64,000 nucleotides of DNA, from NCBI RefSeq assembly GCF_901538355.1, contig NZ_LR593887.1:3572920-3636919 (forward strand). Reading direction: 5' to 3'. Positions 2,197 to 25,374 of this stretch are shown piece by piece (within the stretch, counting starts at the first letter, position 1; each line of letters opens with the position of its first letter). Both the position numbers and the translations under genes were made by a program. Origin of the DNA: Tuwongella immobilis. GTDB lineage: Bacteria; Planctomycetota; Planctomycetia; Gemmatales; Gemmataceae. The notes beneath the pieces were generated by a model. It saw only the letters and a list, made by a program, of their open reading frames with translations, was not told the DNA's origin and made no database searches.

Positions 2197-2215
2197 GCAG
2201 ACAGAGATCCTTGGT

Positions 2216-3268
2216 ATGGCGATGGACGATGTCGACGATTTGGAAGATCTCGATGGGCCACTCGGTCCGGCGGATGTCCCACACACACGCGAACCCGTTG
2301 AGATTGATGTCACCATTCGCGCAGATGGAATGCGACTCGATCATTATCTCGCGCATCAATTTACGGATACCAGCCGTTCCGAGATGCAAGAGCTGATTAA
2401 GGCCGGGAATGTCACCGTCAACGGCAAACCGACCAAGGCGAGCTACAAGGTTCGCCACGGCGATCAACTCAAAGTTCGCATGGTGGTCGCGGTCTTTGAT
2501 GGCCCCAAACCCGAAGATATTCCGCTCGACATCTTGTACGAAGATCAATGGCTTGCGCTCATCAACAAGCCAGCGAATATGGTGGTTCACCCGGCGAAGG
2601 GGAACTGGTCTGGCACGCTCGTCAACGCATTGGTGCATCATTTCCGAGAATTGAGCGTCGCCAATGGCAAATATCGGGCCGGAATCGTCCACCGACTCGA
2701 TCGCGATACCAGCGGAGTCATTCTGGTCGCCAAAGACGACAAGGTGCATCGAGAATTAGCCTTGAAGTTCGAACATCGAGAGATGTTCAAAGAATATCAC
2801 GCCATCACCTGGGGCGTGCTCGATCGGGATTCGGATTACGTGGAACTCCGCATTCGCCATCACCCGCATGATCGAATCAAGATGATCACGACGGATGATC
2901 CGCACGACACGCACGCCAAAGATGCGTGTAGTTTCTACGAGGTCATCGAGCGATTCCAGGGCTTCACCTATGTGAAGATCCAGCCGAAAACGGGACGCAC
3001 GCACCAAATTCGGGTGCATTTGGCGAGTGCGGGTTGCCCCGTGCTGGCGGACAAAGTCTATTCCGGCCGCGATCAACTGCGACTTAGCGATGTGGTGCCC
3101 CGATTGCTCCCCGAAGACGACCGGCCGCTGATGGTGCGTCAGGCCTTGCATGCGGCCCGGTTGCGATTCCAGCATCCGCGGACGCAAAACTGGCTGGAAG
3201 TCACCGCCCCGTTGCCGCCCGACATTCAAGAAACCCTCGAAACGATGCGAAAATATCGGCGTCGATGA
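2216..3268 (+). CDS. RluA-family RNA pseudouridine synthase
   Basis: 350 residues, in the normal range for RluC/RluD-type enzymes. They isomerise specific uridines in rRNA (or tRNA) to pseudouridine in the cytoplasm. An acidic N-terminal extension (about 30 residues) precedes an S4 RNA-binding domain (about 38-85) and the catalytic domain. The RluA signature HRLDRDTSG is at 159-167, with the catalytic Asp at 162; GRTHQIRVHL is also present. ATG 2216 was chosen because an upstream in-frame GTG falls inside a terminator; ATG 2222 is an alternative. Which RNA position it modifies cannot be read from the sequence. Confidence 0.95.
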   Translation: MAMDDVDDLEDLDGPLGPADVPHTREPVEIDVTIRADGMRLDHYLAHQFTDTSRSEMQELIKAGNVTVNGKPTKASYKVRHGDQLKVRMVVAVFDGPKPEDIPLDILYEDQWLALINKPANMVVHPAKGNWSGTLVNALVHHFRELSVANGKYRAGIVHRLDRDTSGVILVAKDDKVHRELALKFEHREMFKEYHAITWGVLDRDSDYVELRIRHHPHDRIKMITTDDPHDTHAKDACSFYEVIERFQGFTYVKIQPKTGRTHQIRVHLASAGCPVLADKVYSGRDQLRLSDVVPRLLPEDDRPLMVRQALHAARLRFQHPRTQNWLEVTAPLPPDIQETLETMRKYRRR

Positions 3269-3338
3269 TTGGGGAAGCGGCGCAAGTTGGCGAGCGATTC
3301 CCGTTCGCGGATTGCACCCACTCTTCCCCCAGAGTGGC

Positions 3339-3368
3339 GGGGCATCCCGGGACGGTCTCGGGTGCCCC
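3339..3368. terminator. GC-rich hairpin between convergent genes
   Basis: GGGGCA (3339-3344) pairs with TGCCCC (3363-3368), and an inner CCCG/CGGG pairing extends the stem with a bulge. It sits between two convergent genes (ending at 3268 and 3389) and could stop transcription from either side. No T-tract is seen, so the call is moderate. Confidence 0.45.
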
Positions 3369-3388: not shown

Positions 3389-4249
3389 TCACGCCTGCGG
3401 CAACTCTCCACGCTCGGACAAACTGCGAGCGCTGGTATCGTGCTTATCCTTCAACCAGGCAACATTCGATTCATCATCTGCAAACCGCTTGATTCCCACA
3501 TCCCGAATCGCCGAATCTGGCACAACTTGCAGCGGCGTATACCGCGGATGATGCGAATCTTTGTACGGATCATTCCGAGCGGCATTATAGCAACAAATCA
3601 TCGACCAACGCGGAAATTCCGAGCGATTCTGGTCGGAGCGATGCAGCAAATTCGCGTGGAAAAAGAGCGCATCTCCCGGCTCCATCTCGACATACACCAA
3701 TTCGAGCCGTTTCAGGAGTTCATCGACTCGTTCCCGATTGGCCCCAGCTTGATCGCCAGTCAGCACATGCTCAATTCGCCCACAATGGTGCGATCCTTTG
3801 AGCACTTGCAGGCAGCCATTCTCTTTTCGAGAGGGATCGACGGCGATCATCACGCTGGTCAAAAGCGGGAACAGTACCCCATTCTGATACCAATACCCAT
3901 AATCCTGATGCCACGCCCATGCCCCACCGACGCGGGCATCCTTCATAATCATCTTCGAGTGATAATGATACACTTCGCCGCCGAGAAGCTGTTCGCAAAC
4001 CCGAACGATGCGTTCGGACCGCGCGAACATGCCATAGATTCCATCGCCGGGATGATTCCACAGCGCCAGCCGCACCTTCCCCCCCTCACCATCCGCGCGG
4101 CCAAACGAATGTTGGTCCAACGCATGATCTTCCTTGGCGGCTCGGCGCAGCAAGTCGATTTCATCCGCAGCATAGAAACCTTTCAGCAGCAAATAGCCAT
4201 CGGTTTCGTACTGCTGAAGCTGGTCGGGTGTCAGTGGAGAGGCGGGCAT
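3389..4249 (-). CDS. Phytanoyl-CoA dioxygenase (PhyH) family protein
   Basis: 286 residues, typical for this family of non-haem Fe(II)/2-oxoglutarate oxygenases. Iron-binding residues are visible as H-Q-D at 114-116 and a distal His at 203 in LLHRSDQN, with Arg205 and Arg214 as possible 2-oxoglutarate contacts. The sequence around HQDYGYWYQNG and the ENGCLQVLKGSHH motif are characteristic of PhyH. ATG 4249 has GGAG 9 bases upstream. It follows the CitG-like gene by 122 bp on the same strand and may be read through from the C1 operon, but no overlap supports that. The substrate is unknown. Confidence 0.9.
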   Translation of the reverse strand: MPASPLTPDQLQQYETDGYLLLKGFYAADEIDLLRRAAKEDHALDQHSFGRADGEGGKVRLALWNHPGDGIYGMFARSERIVRVCEQLLGGEVYHYHSKMIMKDARVGGAWAWHQDYGYWYQNGVLFPLLTSVMIAVDPSRKENGCLQVLKGSHHCGRIEHVLTGDQAGANRERVDELLKRLELVYVEMEPGDALFFHANLLHRSDQNRSEFPRWSMICCYNAARNDPYKDSHHPRYTPLQVVPDSAIRDVGIKRFADDESNVAWLKDKHDTSARSLSERGELPQA

Positions 4250-16038: not shown

Positions 16039-16070
16039 GCGTGAAAACGCTGTCACTTTCTGGAGGAGGT

Positions 16071-19016
16071 ATGATGCTCATCTCTCCTTGGTTGGCATCG
16101 CTTCTGCTGGCGGCACCGCCAGTTGCGCCGAAGCCCAAACCAATGCCTGTGGCCCAAACTGCCCCTGCAACCGCCACCGCTCCCGCAAAACTTCCGCCGG
16201 CTGTCCCGAAAATCGCCACCGAACTGCTGCCAAAGTCGGGTGTGCGCGTCGAGATTGCCGATGTGGAACTGCCCACGGCCACGAGTTGGCCCACGACCTC
16301 GCCCGCAGCAGTTGAGACATTCACCGCACCGGCGTTCGCTTTCTCACGCATTCCGCATCGGTATATTGACACAGGGGTTCGGGTCGATCGGCCCAATCCA
16401 TTCCTGATGCGAGTCGCCGCGAAGGTGACACTCCCCGCCGGAACGCACCGATTCGTGCTCCGAGGTCGCGGCGCTGCTCGCCTCTGGATCGACGGGGCGC
16501 TGGTGCTGGAAACCCCCTTCCCACCATCCGTCGGCGATGGCTCCGATGGACGCGATCCCTCCAAGAAAGAATATCTCGATCTCGGCCCAGACTTCCGCTA
16601 TGCCCCGCCAGGAAATCGGGAGAAGTGGACGAGTTTCCGAACCACCGGCAGCCATCTGGTGATTCTGGAAACCATCGTCGGCGGCAAAATGGGGAAAACC
16701 AACCACCATCGGCCCGACCTCGGCGAAACCGTGGTCGCCGTCTCGCTGGCCGGAACTCAGCAGTTCACGCTGTTGGGAAGTTCTCCAGCAATTCCATACA
16801 CCGACGCCGGTTGGAATCGATTCGCCGAGCAAGAAACGGAATGGCTGGTTCAGGAGGAAGCGAACCGCCGTAAAGCCGCATTTGCGACTCATTCCGAGGA
16901 GTGGAACGCGCGACGAGATCATGCCCGCAACTGGTTGGCATCCACTCCGGAAGTCGCGATTCCGACGCTGCCAGAAGGATATCCGGCTCAGAATGCCGTC
17001 GATCACTTTATCGCCGAGAAGATCGCCGACGCCAAGCAACGGATTCAGCCCAACGGCAAAATTCGCTACGGTCGTGATATTCAACCGATTCTCGCGGCCA
17101 AATGCTTTAGTTGTCATCAGGGGAATCAGGCGAAAGCCGATCTGCGACTGGATCGGCCATCCGATTCGATCGTTCCCGGGAAACCGGCTGAGAGCGAATT
17201 GCTGATTCGAGTCCATGCCAGCGGTGACGAACGGATGCCGCCGCAAGGTGAGCCGCTCTCCGCCCGCGAACAACAACTTCTGAAGGATTGGATTGCCGAA
17301 GGTGCGGCCTATCAAGATCCACCTGGCGCAATCACAGCCCGCTCAGACGACCTAACATTCTTGCGTCGATTGGCATTGGACACTGTTGGGGTTCCGCCGA
17401 CACTCGCAGAAATCGAACAATTCCAACGCGATCCCGAAGCGCAACGACGCGAGCAATGGATTAACCGCTACCTGAACGATCCCCGGCACGCCGATCATTG
17501 GATGGGCTATTGGCAAGATTTGCTGGCCGAGAATCCGAATATCCTCAATCCGACGCTCAACAATACCGGGCCGTTTCGGTGGTGGATCTACGAATCGATG
17601 CGCGATCACAAGCCGCTCGATGTGATGGTCACCGAACTGATTCGGATGCGCGGCAGTGTGCGGGATGGCGGCCCGGCCGGGTTCAGCGTCGCCTCCAGCA
17701 ACGATGTTCCGATGGCCGAAAAGGGAGTCATTCTGGCAGGTGCGTTCTTGGGCACGAATATGCGCTGTGCCCGCTGCCATGATTCCCCGGCGAATTCGTC
17801 CACGCAAAAACAACTGTTTCAGATTGCGGCGATGCTGCAAGAAAAGCCGATCGTCGTGCCCAAAACCAGCAGTGTGCCGCAAGATAAACTGCATACCGGG
17901 CGGAAAGCGCTGATCCGCGTGACGCTCAAACCGGGGACGAAAGTGGATCCCGCGTGGCCGTTCGATGCGACAAAAGCCGCGCCCTCACGATCGGCCTCGA
18001 CTCGGGATCAGTTGGCGGCAGCCATTACCGCGCCAGAAAACACGCGATTTGCCGAAGTGATGGTCAATCGCATCTGGAAGCGATTGATGGGACGCGGGAT
18101 CGTCGAACCAGTCGATGATTGGGAGCGCGGATCGCCGAGCCATCCCGAATTATTGCGCTATCTGGCCCGCGAGTTCGTCCGCTCCGGATACGATCTGCGA
18201 ACAATCGAACGACTCATCTTGCGTAGTCACGCCTACCAACGTGCCGCCGATGCGAATCGAACCGAGGTCGATGCCTATTTCTCCGCACCGATCCACCGTC
18301 GATTGACGGCGGAACAGATCGTCGATTCGTTATTCGCCACCACGGGCAAGTCGATGGGTGTGGGCGAAATCAACCTGGATGTTGATGGTGGACGCGATTG
18401 GGGCAATTCGATTTCGCTGGGGGTTCCGCGCCGATCGTGGGAATTCGCCTCGACTTCGAACGAACGCGATCGTCCCAGTCTGTCGCTGCCACGGGTGCAG
18501 GCGGTGGTCGATGTGCTGAGCATGTTCGGCTGGCGGGCATTCCGCCCCGATCCCACCAGCGAGCGCGATGTGGCTCCCGAAGTGCTGCAACCGGCGATTC
18601 TCTCCAATGGAACGGTCGCCGTTTGGGTGACGCGATTGTCCGACGATCACGGGATCACACAGCTTGCGTTGGATGCTCGCTCTCCCGAAGCCCTGGTCGA
18701 TGCGCTGATGCTCCGGATTCTCACCCGTCCGCCGACGGCAGAAGAACGTGCCAGCATGGTCGGGCACTTGCAGACCGGATTTGCCCAGCGCGTACTGCCC
18801 CCCGCCCCGGCCCCGGCCACCGTGCGGCAGCCGCCTCGATACGTCTCCTGGTCAAACCATTTGACCGAAGAGGCCAACCGCATCAAGGCGGAACTGGAGA
18901 TTCAAGCCCGTCGTGGCGATCCACCATCGGCTCGACTCGAAAGCGAATGGCGACAACGATTGGAAGATGTGCTTTGGGCGATTTTGAATTCCCCGGAAAT
19001 GGTGTTTACTCCCTGA
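16071..19016 (+). CDS. Secreted DUF1549/DUF1553 protein with cytochrome-like and PA14-like domains
   Basis: 981 residues, in the normal range for planctomycete members. A signal-like N terminus is followed by a Pro/Ala-rich linker, a PA14-like segment (about 100-220), a Planctomycete cytochrome C-type region with CFSCH near residue 344, a DUF1549 region with a second CxxCH-like motif CARCH near residue 566, and a C-terminal DUF1553 from about 640 (VMVNRIWKRLMGRGIVEP). These proteins are abundant in planctomycetes and paired with DUF1501 genes; the biochemical role is undetermined. ATG 16071 or 16074 directly follows GGAGGAGGT. The DUF1501 partner starts 32 bp later. Confidence 0.92.
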   Translation: MMLISPWLASLLLAAPPVAPKPKPMPVAQTAPATATAPAKLPPAVPKIATELLPKSGVRVEIADVELPTATSWPTTSPAAVETFTAPAFAFSRIPHRYIDTGVRVDRPNPFLMRVAAKVTLPAGTHRFVLRGRGAARLWIDGALVLETPFPPSVGDGSDGRDPSKKEYLDLGPDFRYAPPGNREKWTSFRTTGSHLVILETIVGGKMGKTNHHRPDLGETVVAVSLAGTQQFTLLGSSPAIPYTDAGWNRFAEQETEWLVQEEANRRKAAFATHSEEWNARRDHARNWLASTPEVAIPTLPEGYPAQNAVDHFIAEKIADAKQRIQPNGKIRYGRDIQPILAAKCFSCHQGNQAKADLRLDRPSDSIVPGKPAESELLIRVHASGDERMPPQGEPLSAREQQLLKDWIAEGAAYQDPPGAITARSDDLTFLRRLALDTVGVPPTLAEIEQFQRDPEAQRREQWINRYLNDPRHADHWMGYWQDLLAENPNILNPTLNNTGPFRWWIYESMRDHKPLDVMVTELIRMRGSVRDGGPAGFSVASSNDVPMAEKGVILAGAFLGTNMRCARCHDSPANSSTQKQLFQIAAMLQEKPIVVPKTSSVPQDKLHTGRKALIRVTLKPGTKVDPAWPFDATKAAPSRSASTRDQLAAAITAPENTRFAEVMVNRIWKRLMGRGIVEPVDDWERGSPSHPELLRYLAREFVRSGYDLRTIERLILRSHAYQRAADANRTEVDAYFSAPIHRRLTAEQIVDSLFATTGKSMGVGEINLDVDGGRDWGNSISLGVPRRSWEFASTSNERDRPSLSLPRVQAVVDVLSMFGWRAFRPDPTSERDVAPEVLQPAILSNGTVAVWVTRLSDDHGITQLALDARSPEALVDALMLRILTRPPTAEERASMVGHLQTGFAQRVLPPAPAPATVRQPPRYVSWSNHLTEEANRIKAELEIQARRGDPPSARLESEWRQRLEDVLWAILNSPEMVFTP

Positions 19017-19048
19017 TTCGTTCGTGAGATTGATCGGAGTTGATTTCG

Positions 19049-20350
19049 ATGGCAGCATCTCAATTCACTCGCCGCAACTTCCTCACGACGAGCGGTGTCG
19101 CCCTGGCGGCATCGAGTTTGGGAGTCGCCGATGCGGGATTGGCCCGCGCTGAATTCGCCGCCCAACCGCCACGATTGGGCAAAGCCGATTCGTGCATCTT
19201 CATCTGGCTGGGCGGCGGAATGGCCCAGATCGATACGTTCGATCCCAAGCAGATCGGCGATCCCACCGCGAAAAAGGCCGGTTCCGCTTACCCCAGCATC
19301 GATACCGCCGTCAGTGGCGTGAAGGTGTGTCAATTTCTGCCGAAGTTGGCCCAAGTGATGGATCGCGTGACGGCGGTGCGAACCGTCAATCATAATGAGA
19401 TTGACGAGCACGCCGCAGCCACTCACCGCGTGCATACCGGTCGCCCACTCGCCGGAACGATCCAATATCCTTCGGTCGGTTCGGTCGTCGCCCATGTTCG
19501 CGGGGCGGCCGATTCCGGGGTGCCAGCCTATGTGCTGATCGGTTATCCCAACGTCTCACGCGGTCCGGGCTTTCTCGGGCCGAAGGCGGGATATGTCTAT
19601 CTGACGGATACGCAAGCTGGCCCCGCGGGGTTGTCTCGACCAGCGGATGTCTCCGCAAGCCGACAATCCGCCCGAGAACGCCTGTTGAGCAGTCTGCGGC
19701 ATCGTGTCCCGGCTGGCAGTCCATTGGCGACCTATGACCAAGCGATTTCCGAAAGCCTGCGGTTGGCCGGCCCTAAATTCATGAGCGTGTTCGATCTCAG
19801 CAGCGAATCCAAATCGCTACGAGCATCCTACGGCGGCGAGTTTGGACAACGCTGTTTATTGGCACGGCGACTGACCGAATCCGGCGTGCGTTTCATCGAA
19901 GTATCCCACAATCTGAACTTCTTGAACGGAACGGGTTGGGATACCCACAATCAGGGGCAACTGAAGCAGCATTTGCTGATCGAAGAATTGGATACCGCAA
20001 TGGCAGCGTTGATCCGCGATTTGGAACAACGCAACCGATTGGATCGGACGTTGATCGTGATTGGGACCGAGTTCGGTCGGCCTGCGGAATTCGATGGCGG
20101 TGGCGGGCGTGGGCATCAAGGTTCGGCGTTCTCGATGGTGTTGGCTGGCGGCGGGCTTCGCCACCAAGGTGCGTATGGCACCACCGATGAACTGGCGAAA
20201 AAGATCGTCGATGGGCCTGTGTCGATGGCCGATTTTCATGCGACGATTTACGCCACGTTGGGCATCGACCCCACAAAGGTGCTCACGGGTGGCCCGCGAC
20301 CGGTCCCCATCACCGACGACGGGAAACCGATCGCAAAATTGTTTGCGTAA
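19049..20350 (+). CDS. DUF1501 protein with twin-arginine signal
   Basis: 433 residues. The N terminus carries a Tat-type motif (TRRNFLTTS) and an alanine-rich hydrophobic core, so folded export is expected. The body matches DUF1501, a sulfatase/alkaline-phosphatase-like fold: [17 protein letters not shown], a conserved His-rich stretch (HTGRPLAG), [13 protein letters not shown] and [10 protein letters not shown]. It is the usual partner of DUF1553 genes and follows one by 32 bp. ATG 19049 has GGAG about 10 bases upstream. Whether it acts as a hydrolase is not known. Confidence 0.92.
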
Positions 20351-22232: not shown

Positions 22233-22333
22233 GGGGAAACTCCCATCTCGAAGACGCAATTGAACACCCGAAATGGGGATACCCGTTTCCGGCCAATGCT
22301 CGCCAAAATGGGAAAAAATGGAGGAATTTCCGG

Positions 22334-23842
22334 ATGGAACACTCCAGCGCGGTTCTCTTGCATCGTCTTCAAGGCGGGGATGGCGAATCTGCAACCATCA
22401 TCTGGAATCGCTATGTTCAACGCCTGACCCAACTGGTGCGGCGGCGATTGGGCCGGGGCGCGAATCCGATTATGGACGCGGATGACGCGGTCGCTTCCGC
22501 ATTTCGCAGCTTTTTCCGTCGATCGCAGACCGCCGATTGGCAGGCGCAGCAACCCGGCGATTTGTGGCGACTATTGGCGACGATCACACGCCACAAATTA
22601 TCCCGACAACTCCGGTGGCAATCCGCTCAGCGTCGGTCGCTGCCGGCCAACCTGATTCACTCAATTCCCATGGAATCGCTGGCCAACCGCAACGCGCCAT
22701 CGCCGTTGGAATCGTTAATCGCATTGGATCTTCTGGAACAATGGCTGATGCCATTGGATCCCATCGATCGCCAAATCGTCGAAGCGCGATTGCAGGAAAT
22801 GACCTGGGCGGAAATTGCCCAAACGACTGGGATTCCCGCGCGGACCGCTCAGCGTCGGCTCGCCCGCTGGATTGCCGTTTGGGAAGCGGCGATTCGGAAA
22901 TCGGACACGCCCCAGGACTCACCCGCGACGGACTCGCCGAATGACTCGGACAATGCTCGGCGTGAAGCGACTTCGACTCACCTAGTCGCTTCGGCTGAAC
23001 TGCGTGAACCGCTCCAACTCCCCGCACCGCAATTGGAATCGGTGTCGCTGGAACGCTATCGGTTGGTTCGTTGTTTGGGCCAAGGCGCAACCGGAAAAGT
23101 CTACGCCGCTTACGACCAAGTCACCGATGAAGCCGTGGCCGTGAAATTGCTCCGCCGCCCGATCTGGAGCGATCTCGCCGCAATGTCTCGATTCCAGCAA
23201 GAAGCCGAACTCTTGACACAGCTTCAACATCCGTCAATTATCCGCTTGCGTGCCATGGGGCAACTGCGTTCCGGCGGGTGGTTCCTGGTGATGCCAGCGT
23301 ATCGGACCTACCCACGCCAATGGTCGCAACGTCCGCGCCAGCAACGACTTCGGGATCTCGTCGGAGTCGTCGATGCGTTAGCTGCCGCTCACCAACAAGG
23401 CATCGTGCATTGCGACTTGAAATGGAGTAATTTTCTGCTGGATGAATCGGATTCACCGATTCTCAGCGACTTCGGATTTGCACGACATCGGCGCGAATCG
23501 TCGGGAATGGATGGGGGTACGCCCGGATGGATGGCACCTGAGCAGCTCGATTCCCGTCTCGGCGAGATTTCGCCCGCAACCGATTGTTTCACCATGGGGT
23601 TGTTGCTGGCCGCCGCCTGGCTTGGGCGAGCCGTCGATTGGGAATCGAAGTTGCGAGCGTGGATGCGTGCCGATGCCCCGTGGCCGACGTGGTTGGAGGT
23701 TGCCGACTTGACGAACGGCCCGCCATCACTCCAACAAACGATTCGGGATTGCTTGCAAATCGATCCGCAACGCCGCCCGCAACACGCCGGTGAACTCGCG
23801 GCAATCTGGAAATCTTCGCTCTCCGAATGGGAATCCGCATGA
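22334..23842 (+). CDS. ECF-like sigma factor fused to a Ser/Thr protein kinase
   Basis: 502 residues. Residues about 1-185 carry sigma-70 region 2 (WNRYVQRLTQLVRRRLG, then DADDAVASAF and LATITRHKLSR) and region 4 (LDPIDRQIVEARLQEMTWAE, TAQRRLARW). A Ser/Thr/Asp linker (about 190-238) leads to a protein kinase domain (about 242-495): glycine loop GQGATGKV, Lys271 (VAVKLL), Glu290, HCDLKWSN with Asp361, DFG at 379-381, and APEQ at 401. The catalytic loop has Cys360 instead of Arg, so it is a non-RD kinase. ATG 22334 has GGAGGA 8 bases upstream. The 3' end overlaps the next gene by ATGA. Confidence 0.93.
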   Translation: MEHSSAVLLHRLQGGDGESATIIWNRYVQRLTQLVRRRLGRGANPIMDADDAVASAFRSFFRRSQTADWQAQQPGDLWRLLATITRHKLSRQLRWQSAQRRSLPANLIHSIPMESLANRNAPSPLESLIALDLLEQWLMPLDPIDRQIVEARLQEMTWAEIAQTTGIPARTAQRRLARWIAVWEAAIRKSDTPQDSPATDSPNDSDNARREATSTHLVASAELREPLQLPAPQLESVSLERYRLVRCLGQGATGKVYAAYDQVTDEAVAVKLLRRPIWSDLAAMSRFQQEAELLTQLQHPSIIRLRAMGQLRSGGWFLVMPAYRTYPRQWSQRPRQQRLRDLVGVVDALAAAHQQGIVHCDLKWSNFLLDESDSPILSDFGFARHRRESSGMDGGTPGWMAPEQLDSRLGEISPATDCFTMGLLLAAAWLGRAVDWESKLRAWMRADAPWPTWLEVADLTNGPPSLQQTIRDCLQIDPQRRPQHAGELAAIWKSSLSEWESA

Positions 23843-25374
23843 CAACGCGACTCCGCATCTGCCTGGGAATGGTCTTGGTGATTCTGGCGACCTGCCCGAC
23901 AATCGGCTGGTCGCAGCCACCTCGGCGTGAAGTTCCAATCACCGAAATTCGCTTCCTGGATTCTGAGACGGGCGAAGGCATTCCGCTGATTGAGGCAATC
24001 AGCGTGAACTCGCTGCGCTGGGTCAGCGATAATGCCGGGCGAATTGCCATTCAGGAACCTGGTTGGGATGGGCAAGAGCGATTCTTCCAGCTTCGCACGC
24101 ACGGCTACGAAATCCCCAAAGATGGCTTCGGAATCGCTGGCATTCGCGTGACGCTGAAGGCAACCACGCCAGCGATTGTGAAACTCCGTCGCGTCAATCT
24201 GGCAGAACGACTCTGTCGGCTGACCGGCGAAGGACTCTGGCGGGATTCGTGGATGCTGGGCTACCCCGTCCCGCGAATCGATCCCCAGCCGCGCGGACTA
24301 GTCGCTGGGCAAGACTCGATTCAAACCGCGCTCTATCGTGGGAAAATCCGTTGGTTTTGGGGCGATACCAGTCGATTGAGTTATCCGCTGGGGCTATTTC
24401 GGATGGCGGGTGCGGTAAGTGATCCGCCGGGAGATTCGGTCGATCTGCGAAATGGCATCGATTACCAGGTTTTCACGGATACGAACGGGTTTGCGCGTGC
24501 CATGATGCCGCTACCGGAACGTCCGGAAGGTGTGATTTGGCTTGATGGATACGTGGTGGTACCCGATGCGGAAGGCAAGGATGTGCTGATCGCCCACTAT
24601 TCCCGTCGAAAAGGTCTCGCCGAAGAGTTGGAGCATGGCATCGCCCGCTATGCCGATGCGACCGATCGATTCGAAGTGATTCAAACTCGCCCGCTCACCG
24701 ACACCTGGCGAGTTCCCCATGGGCACCCGATTATTCACGAAATCGACGGCAAAAAATGGTTGTATTGTGGGAATGGCGGCCTGAATGTTCGCGTGCCAGC
24801 GACGCTCTCGGCGATTTTGGATGCCAGCCAATATCAAGCGTTTCGCCGAGAGGGGAATCAATGGTCCTGGCAGTCGAAACAGCCCCCCACACAATCGGCA
24901 GATGATCTCGCGGCTCTGAAAGCAGGGACCCTTTCCGATTCAGCGGCATATTATGCACCGCGTGATGTGGAGAATCCCGATCAGCGGATTCAGTTGCATC
25001 ACGGCAGCGTCCGCTGGAATCCGGCCCGCAAACGCTTTGTCATGGTGATTACGCAAATCATGGGCAAACCGTCCATGCTCGGCGAAATCTGGTATAGCGA
25101 ATCCGATCAGCCGAATGGACCATTTCGCCACGCGATTCGCATTCTCACCCATGATCGCCAGACGTTTTACAACCCGTGCCATCATGATTTTCTGGATCGT
25201 GATGGCGGTCAGGTAATCCATTTTGAGGGAACGTACACGAGCGATTTTTCGGGGAATCCCGAGAAAACCGCTCGATACGACTACAATCAGATGCTTTATC
25301 GACTCGATCTGCGAAGCAAGCGAATGGCGTCGCTGCTCCAGCGAATGGACAAAGTCACCGATCCGAAACAATGA
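23839..25374 (+). CDS. Secreted protein with beta-propeller-like fold
   Basis: 511 residues. A signal peptide (MTTRLRICLGMVLVILATCP) is followed by a short Ig-like or carboxypeptidase-regulatory-like beta domain (about 30-120) and a larger beta-rich domain with IRWFWGDTSRL, VPHGHPIIHEIDGKKWLYCG and LHHGSVRWNPARKRFVMV. Those strips resemble five-bladed propeller glycosidase-like proteins (DUF4185-style), but no catalytic pair is certain. ATG 23839 overlaps the TGA of the sigma-kinase gene, so translation is likely coupled. The substrate is probably a carbohydrate (inference). Confidence 0.75.
   Translation: MTTRLRICLGMVLVILATCPTIGWSQPPRREVPITEIRFLDSETGEGIPLIEAISVNSLRWVSDNAGRIAIQEPGWDGQERFFQLRTHGYEIPKDGFGIAGIRVTLKATTPAIVKLRRVNLAERLCRLTGEGLWRDSWMLGYPVPRIDPQPRGLVAGQDSIQTALYRGKIRWFWGDTSRLSYPLGLFRMAGAVSDPPGDSVDLRNGIDYQVFTDTNGFARAMMPLPERPEGVIWLDGYVVVPDAEGKDVLIAHYSRRKGLAEELEHGIARYADATDRFEVIQTRPLTDTWRVPHGHPIIHEIDGKKWLYCGNGGLNVRVPATLSAILDASQYQAFRREGNQWSWQSKQPPTQSADDLAALKAGTLSDSAAYYAPRDVENPDQRIQLHHGSVRWNPARKRFVMVITQIMGKPSMLGEIWYSESDQPNGPFRHAIRILTHDRQTFYNPCHHDFLDRDGGQVIHFEGTYTSDFSGNPEKTARYDYNQMLYRLDLRSKRMASLLQRMDKVTDPKQ

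Follow-up and report, generated by a model that had tools for sequence, protein, structure and literature searches.

An ECF sigma factor joined to a non-RD Ser/Thr kinase and paired with a divergent ferredoxin gene in Tuwongella immobilis and related planctomycetes

Kinase-controlled sigma factors are rare in the literature that we found: very few systems are described, and all are made of two proteins. In EcfP-PknT (ECF43, Vibrio parahaemolyticus) and EcfK-PknS (Xanthomonas citri), the activity of the ECF sigma factor depends on a genetically linked Hanks-type kinase (PMC8103513, PMC8999054, PMC13147305), which in the case of PknS is a transmembrane protein. EcfP lacks the acidic DAED motif required for polymerase binding and carries STTA in its place; a phospho-threonine substitutes for the motif and the phosphate restores the charge (PMC8103513, PMC8999054). 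Other ECFs, namely ECF41, ECF42, CorE/ECF238 and IutY, carry a regulatory domain at the C-terminus of the sigma factor, and the available text of PMC8999054 gives these extensions as SnoaL-like, TPR, Cys-rich or anti-sigma, naming no catalytic kinase among them. Planctomycetes, moreover, have ECFs of the PF07638 family with kinases adjoining.

The locus described here lies in a 64,000-nt stretch of the T. immobilis genome (the window; coordinates are window positions) and compares in part with each of these systems. As in EcfP-PknT and EcfK-PknS, an ECF is linked to a Hanks-type kinase, but here the two are one polypeptide; unlike PknS, the kinase has no membrane segment and is non-RD; and the sigma factor keeps the acidic motif that EcfP has exchanged. 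The kinase takes the C-terminal position that the regulatory domains occupy in ECF41 and the others. With the kinase-linked PF07638 ECFs the unit shares the sigma family, the phylum and the adjoining kinase. However, the other such ECFs of the same genome mostly have separate HRD kinases as partners, whereas the clade of the window protein is marked by HCD, HGD or HAD, by frequent fusion and by a ferredoxin partner. A search of the open literature gave no account of sigma-kinase fusions or of the ferredoxin link; the main ECF classification paper lies outside that search and may already list the fusion.

The original prediction had been that an ECF-like sigma factor and a complete kinase are joined in a single polypeptide, and this held. 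The gene is one intact frame, with a GGAGG resembling a ribosome-binding site at 22320-22324, nine bases 5' of the ATG, and its product matches Pfam Sigma70_ECF and then Pkinase, with no other domain in the Pfam scan (Table 1). The sigma part has sigma-2 and sigma-4 and no sigma-3, scores 56.3 bits against the PF07638 cut-off of 21.1, and has its Sigma70_r4_2 match at residues 141-178 (E 1e-6). The kinase domain carries every hallmark of a Hanks-type Ser/Thr kinase (VAVK with K271, H359-C360-D361, N366, D379-F-G and the APE Glu), the predicted catalytic Lys, Asp and DFG among them, and these catalytic residues are invariant among its relatives. It is not of the RD type, a cysteine preceding the catalytic Asp as had been proposed. 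A dead kinase is an unsupported reading, all catalytic residues being invariant in the 56 kinases of this kind, and we infer that the enzyme is active. In the AlphaFold model the kinase domain was confident, with a pLDDT mostly at about 90 or above, and the linker was disordered; Foldseek matched the modelled kinase domain to PknB (E 2e-16) and to many others. The sigma part was weaker, the pTM of the model was 0.58 and the only fusion in the underlying alignment was that of the window, so we claim no interface between the domains. The genome, one contig of 6.69 Mb, gave 116 matches to kinases and 22 to the PF07638 family, in keeping with a planctomycete of the Gemmataceae type.

Table 1. Features of the sigma-kinase locus in window coordinates, with one comparison feature placed on its own locus (L222)
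Feature	Position	Strand	Basis or remark
FdI/FdxA-type ferredoxin gene, 91 aa	21957..22232	-	divergent, upstream of fusion; neighbour comparison and Cys pattern
Intergenic region between the divergent genes, 101 bp	22233..22333	.	read from sequence
Degenerate bipartite element, GGGGATAC-N17-TCGCCA	22275..22305	.	score 6.2, not significant alone
Sigma factor-kinase fusion gene	22334..23842	+	one stop-free frame, 502 aa
ECF sigma domain (sigma-2 and sigma-4), residues 6-177	22349..22864	+	PF07638 E 5e-15; PF08281 E 1e-6
Acidic sigma-2.2 motif D-A-D-D, residues 48-51	22475..22486	+	alignment of linked sigmas
Residues 55-59, holding candidate phospho-sites Ser55 and Ser59	22496..22510	+	beside acidic motif
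Linker, residues 190-238	22901..23047	+	predicted disordered up to residue 230
Hanks-type kinase domain, residues 242-483	23057..23782	+	PF00069 E 6e-33
His-Cys-Asp non-RD catalytic loop	23408..23416	+	read from sequence
Secreted-looking gene overlapping the fusion gene	23827-25374		ATG at 23827, or at 23839 (overlaps stop as ATGA)
N-terminal domain of two-gene kinases, example in L222	about 3622-4092 (L222)	-	alignment of two-gene kinases

The same domain order was present in four further genomes, at 31-39% identity. A sigma-domain profile run over 397 genomes of the class confirmed 45 fused sigma-kinase proteins in all, spread over six family-level groups (f1, f3, f4, f11, f12 and f14). Several of them come from single-contig genomes, so assembly errors do not explain the fusions. 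This disposes of a caveat attached to the original prediction, a sequencing error that joined two genes, and equally of a chance junction. In a sample of the phylum, members outside the class gave no strong match at E 1e-40. A scan of contigs from named organisms returned generic kinases and a single match spanning both sigma and kinase, L096, which was rejected as a fusion: it is an ordinary HRD sigma/kinase pair with no ferredoxin.

The nearest unfused sigma genes have a kinase gene directly 3'. Ten such split pairs have a kinase start codon that overlaps the stop of the sigma gene, mostly by 4-8 nt. In an eleventh (L180, 3947-5476) sigma factor and kinase share one frame that is broken by a single in-frame TAG; this pair sits inside a clade of fusions and represents either a recent break or an assembly error. 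On the kinase-domain tree the 45 fused and 11 split kinases fall on one side of a branch (support 100/98), and the other side is made up of 26 further kinases from planctomycetes, five of them additional HCD kinases of the T. immobilis genome. The middle residue of the HxD motif in the 56 linked kinases is C in 44, G in 9, A in 3 and R in none; pattern counts for the whole T. immobilis genome gave 88 HRD-type against 7 HCD-type. Since glycine or alanine takes this place in some members, a redox role for the cysteine is not general. Fused and split forms intermix on both the sigma and the kinase tree, where the starred branches force at least 5-6 changes; the joint has thus been made or broken several times. 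The genetic link between sigma factor and kinase in the window is certain, and because the nearest unfused relatives are overlapping sigma and kinase gene pairs, the two very likely form a working unit.

The two forms differ in what stands between sigma factor and kinase. Ahead of the kinase domain, all ten two-gene kinases (10/10) carry an N-terminal domain, about 130 residues long, in which the motif [YF]RxRxRWGDxP is near-invariant; two examples scanned gave no Pfam match. None of the 45 fusions matches a profile of this domain; 25-78 residues part sigma from kinase there, and in the window protein the linker occupies its place. The simplest reading of these alignments, given that the domain is absent from every fusion and a linker stands in its stead, is that it probably docks the sigma factor and is dispensable once the two are fused. 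The domain also occurs in several HRD kinases adjoining sigma genes, so two genes plus the domain are probably the ancestral state. Many planctomycete kinases beside sigma genes carry it: of the 48 matches listed for its profile across 10 genomes, about 25 have a PF07638 sigma gene within 1 kb, compared with about 6 of the 112 kinases of the T. immobilis genome that have no such domain.

The conserved partner of the unit is a ferredoxin gene, divergent and upstream. A probe built on the cysteine pattern located it at 53 of the 56 loci. At 51 of these no more than about 370 bp separate it from the sigma domain, and at the other two an insertion lies between; of the three loci without it, one ends at a contig end and two have adequate flanks. 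The pairing is kept in both fused and split forms and across seven family-level groups, and a comparison of neighbours revealed no conserved third gene. Among solved structures the window ferredoxin is closest to Azotobacter ferredoxin I (84 residues, E about 1e-25). It has the C-x2-C-x4-C-x3-C-P ... C-x2-C-x2-C-x3-C-P pattern of the 7Fe FdI/FdxA type and keeps all seven cluster cysteines, the ligands it has in common with Azotobacter vinelandii FdI/FdxA; unlike that protein, it falls below the NCBIfam FdxA equivalog cut-off (96 of 135 bits) and is encoded divergently from a sigma-kinase gene.

One or more FdI-type ferredoxins are present in nearly every planctomycete searched. Across 59 genomes, there were two in all 6 that have the sigma-kinase unit and one in most others; the remaining ferredoxin loci that were checked all lacked a sigma-kinase unit nearby. 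Moreover, the linked copies cluster on the ferredoxin tree, which is built on a short alignment (2 label changes versus 20.5 in shuffles). The two copies in genomes with the unit, the unlinked copies standing apart from it and the clustering on the tree together indicate, at the level of gene content and sequence, that the unit owns a dedicated ferredoxin paralogue. The second FdI-type ferredoxin of T. immobilis (G000:C1:3443207-3443440) is 52% identical to the linked copy.

Spaced-dyad counts and a two-block expectation-maximisation search uncovered a bipartite element in the region shared by the divergent genes. Read towards the sigma gene it is GtgaATgC-N16/17-CGGaCA (family form GTGAATGC-N16/17-CGGACA), and it is present in most of 47 non-redundant intergenic regions, with a log-likelihood of 311 against 77-96 in shuffles. 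A leave-one-genus-out profile separated the 47 linked regions from 23 regions upstream of unlinked ferredoxins (p 9e-11), and the best matches in the linked regions have one orientation in 46 of 47. The window element has the usual place and orientation, and its score of 6.2 falls inside the range of unlinked regions. Two short blocks at a fixed spacing are the layout of a promoter, and the putative promoter could fire towards the ferredoxin or towards the sigma gene. Of the two distances, the one to the ferredoxin start is a little tighter. At one locus the element remains beside the ferredoxin after an insertion; at another (L177) a transposase-like ORF, at about 2197-3348 on the reverse complement, lies between ferredoxin and element, which stays with the sigma gene. 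These two loci disagree, and we rejected them as a guide to direction. The exact pattern gave 18 matches in 18 genomes, 9 of them at the sigma-kinase locus; a genome-wide regulon defined by this pattern was rejected, the matches away from the locus being near chance.

The window protein has a long branch and adjoins its family relative in G009. Sigma factor, kinase and ferredoxin of this genome are all on unusually long branches, and L220, another sigma there, is not; the whole unit seems to be fast-evolving in this genome. Given these three long branches and the degenerate element, the window copy may have drifted in function.

Our best guess, as in the original prediction, is that the kinase would control its own sigma domain. 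The EcfP-PknT scheme, the only characterised chemistry for such control, goes with loss of the acidic motif and is not applicable here, the motif being kept. In place of the uncharged Ser/Thr that mark the EcfP/ECF43 type, the window sigma has DADD, and the linked sigmas have D-x-[E/D]-D in 55 of 56 and D-P-E-E in the remaining one (L222); a phosphate standing in for a missing acidic motif is ruled out. Ser55 and Ser59, adjoining the motif, could be the residues that are switched. Both are serine in all linked sigmas, and these positions are also Ser or Thr in sigmas that lack this kinase (overall, Ser55 in 66/66); a search for a phospho-site specific to the linked sigmas found none, Ser55 and Ser59 being general to the sigma group.

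In the model that we prefer, and to which we give about an even chance, a kinase-tethered sigma factor controls its own ferredoxin, itself or both, as a self-contained transcription switch. A direct physical link would hold the sigma factor to a soluble kinase, of the non-RD Ser/Thr type: the flexible linker in the fusion and, in the two-gene form, probably docking on the N-terminal domain of the kinase. The state of the kinase would set whether the sigma factor engages RNA polymerase, either because the sigma domain is phosphorylated or because the kinase masks it differently; phosphorylation in cis would be the likely step. Active sigma factor would then transcribe from the intergenic element the dedicated ferredoxin, its own gene or both, and the ferredoxin would couple the unit to the status of electron carriers, redox or iron-sulphur; it would be an output and may also feed back. 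We put forward only tentatively, and with some doubt, the fuller reading of a one-protein redox-linked switch in which a tethered non-RD kinase governs essentially one promoter, shared with its own FdI-type ferredoxin, and in which the sigma-docking domain of two-gene ancestors was lost at each fusion.

Alternatively, the kinase could be a built-in anti-sigma factor or scaffold that holds or releases the sigma domain by its conformation, sigma phosphorylation not being the switch. The retained acidic motif, with which core binding needs no phosphate, agrees with this, as do the resemblance of the replaced N-terminal domain to a binding module and the regulation of other ECFs by C-terminal extensions (PMC8999054). 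Invariance of every catalytic residue in 56 kinases would be unexpected for a pure scaffold, however, and we consider this alternative unlikely. Less probable still is that the ferredoxin is the sensor and not the target, its redox or cluster state controlling the kinase and the regulon lying elsewhere in the genome: the near-invariant pairing with a dedicated paralogue would suit a sensor, but the conserved, promoter-like element sits between the two divergent genes and hardly occurs at other places. We give marginally less credence to a sigma domain that delivers the kinase to RNA polymerase or a promoter to act on core polymerase, the ferredoxin or a third factor; a complete kinase on a flexible, predicted disordered linker could work in this way, but the loci hold no conserved third gene besides the ferredoxin. 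Old synteny with no joint function, the element belonging to another, unlinked regulator, is very improbable, because, despite the two loci that have no ferredoxin, the pairing is kept across seven family-level groups, fused and split, and ferredoxin genes outside the unit are also devoid of the element.

The unit, fused and split in many genomes, supplies candidates for a docking domain, for a single target and for a promoter, and this makes several questions directly testable. With it one can ask by what means a kinase acts on a sigma factor whose acid patch for binding polymerase is already in place, what the numerous sigma-adjacent kinases of planctomycetes do, and what a bacterial non-RD kinase senses. 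That the unit almost always faces its own ferredoxin gene, with a short promoter region common to both, suggests that the gene switch is redox-linked.

Finally, the original prediction had pointed to an overlapping downstream gene for a secreted, putatively beta-propeller-like protein. The overlap and the secreted-like start of this gene were confirmed; its role as a partner was not, as no homologue lies beside any other fusion, and its product has no Pfam match, so the beta-propeller likeness is no more than a suggestion. It is thus outside the unit, in which the ferredoxin is the conserved partner. Elsewhere in the window (16041-20350), a large gene whose product has a cytochrome-like CxxCH motif precedes one for a DUF1501 protein bearing a TAT signal; we take the two to be a DUF1549/DUF1553-DUF1501 pair of the kind common in planctomycetes.
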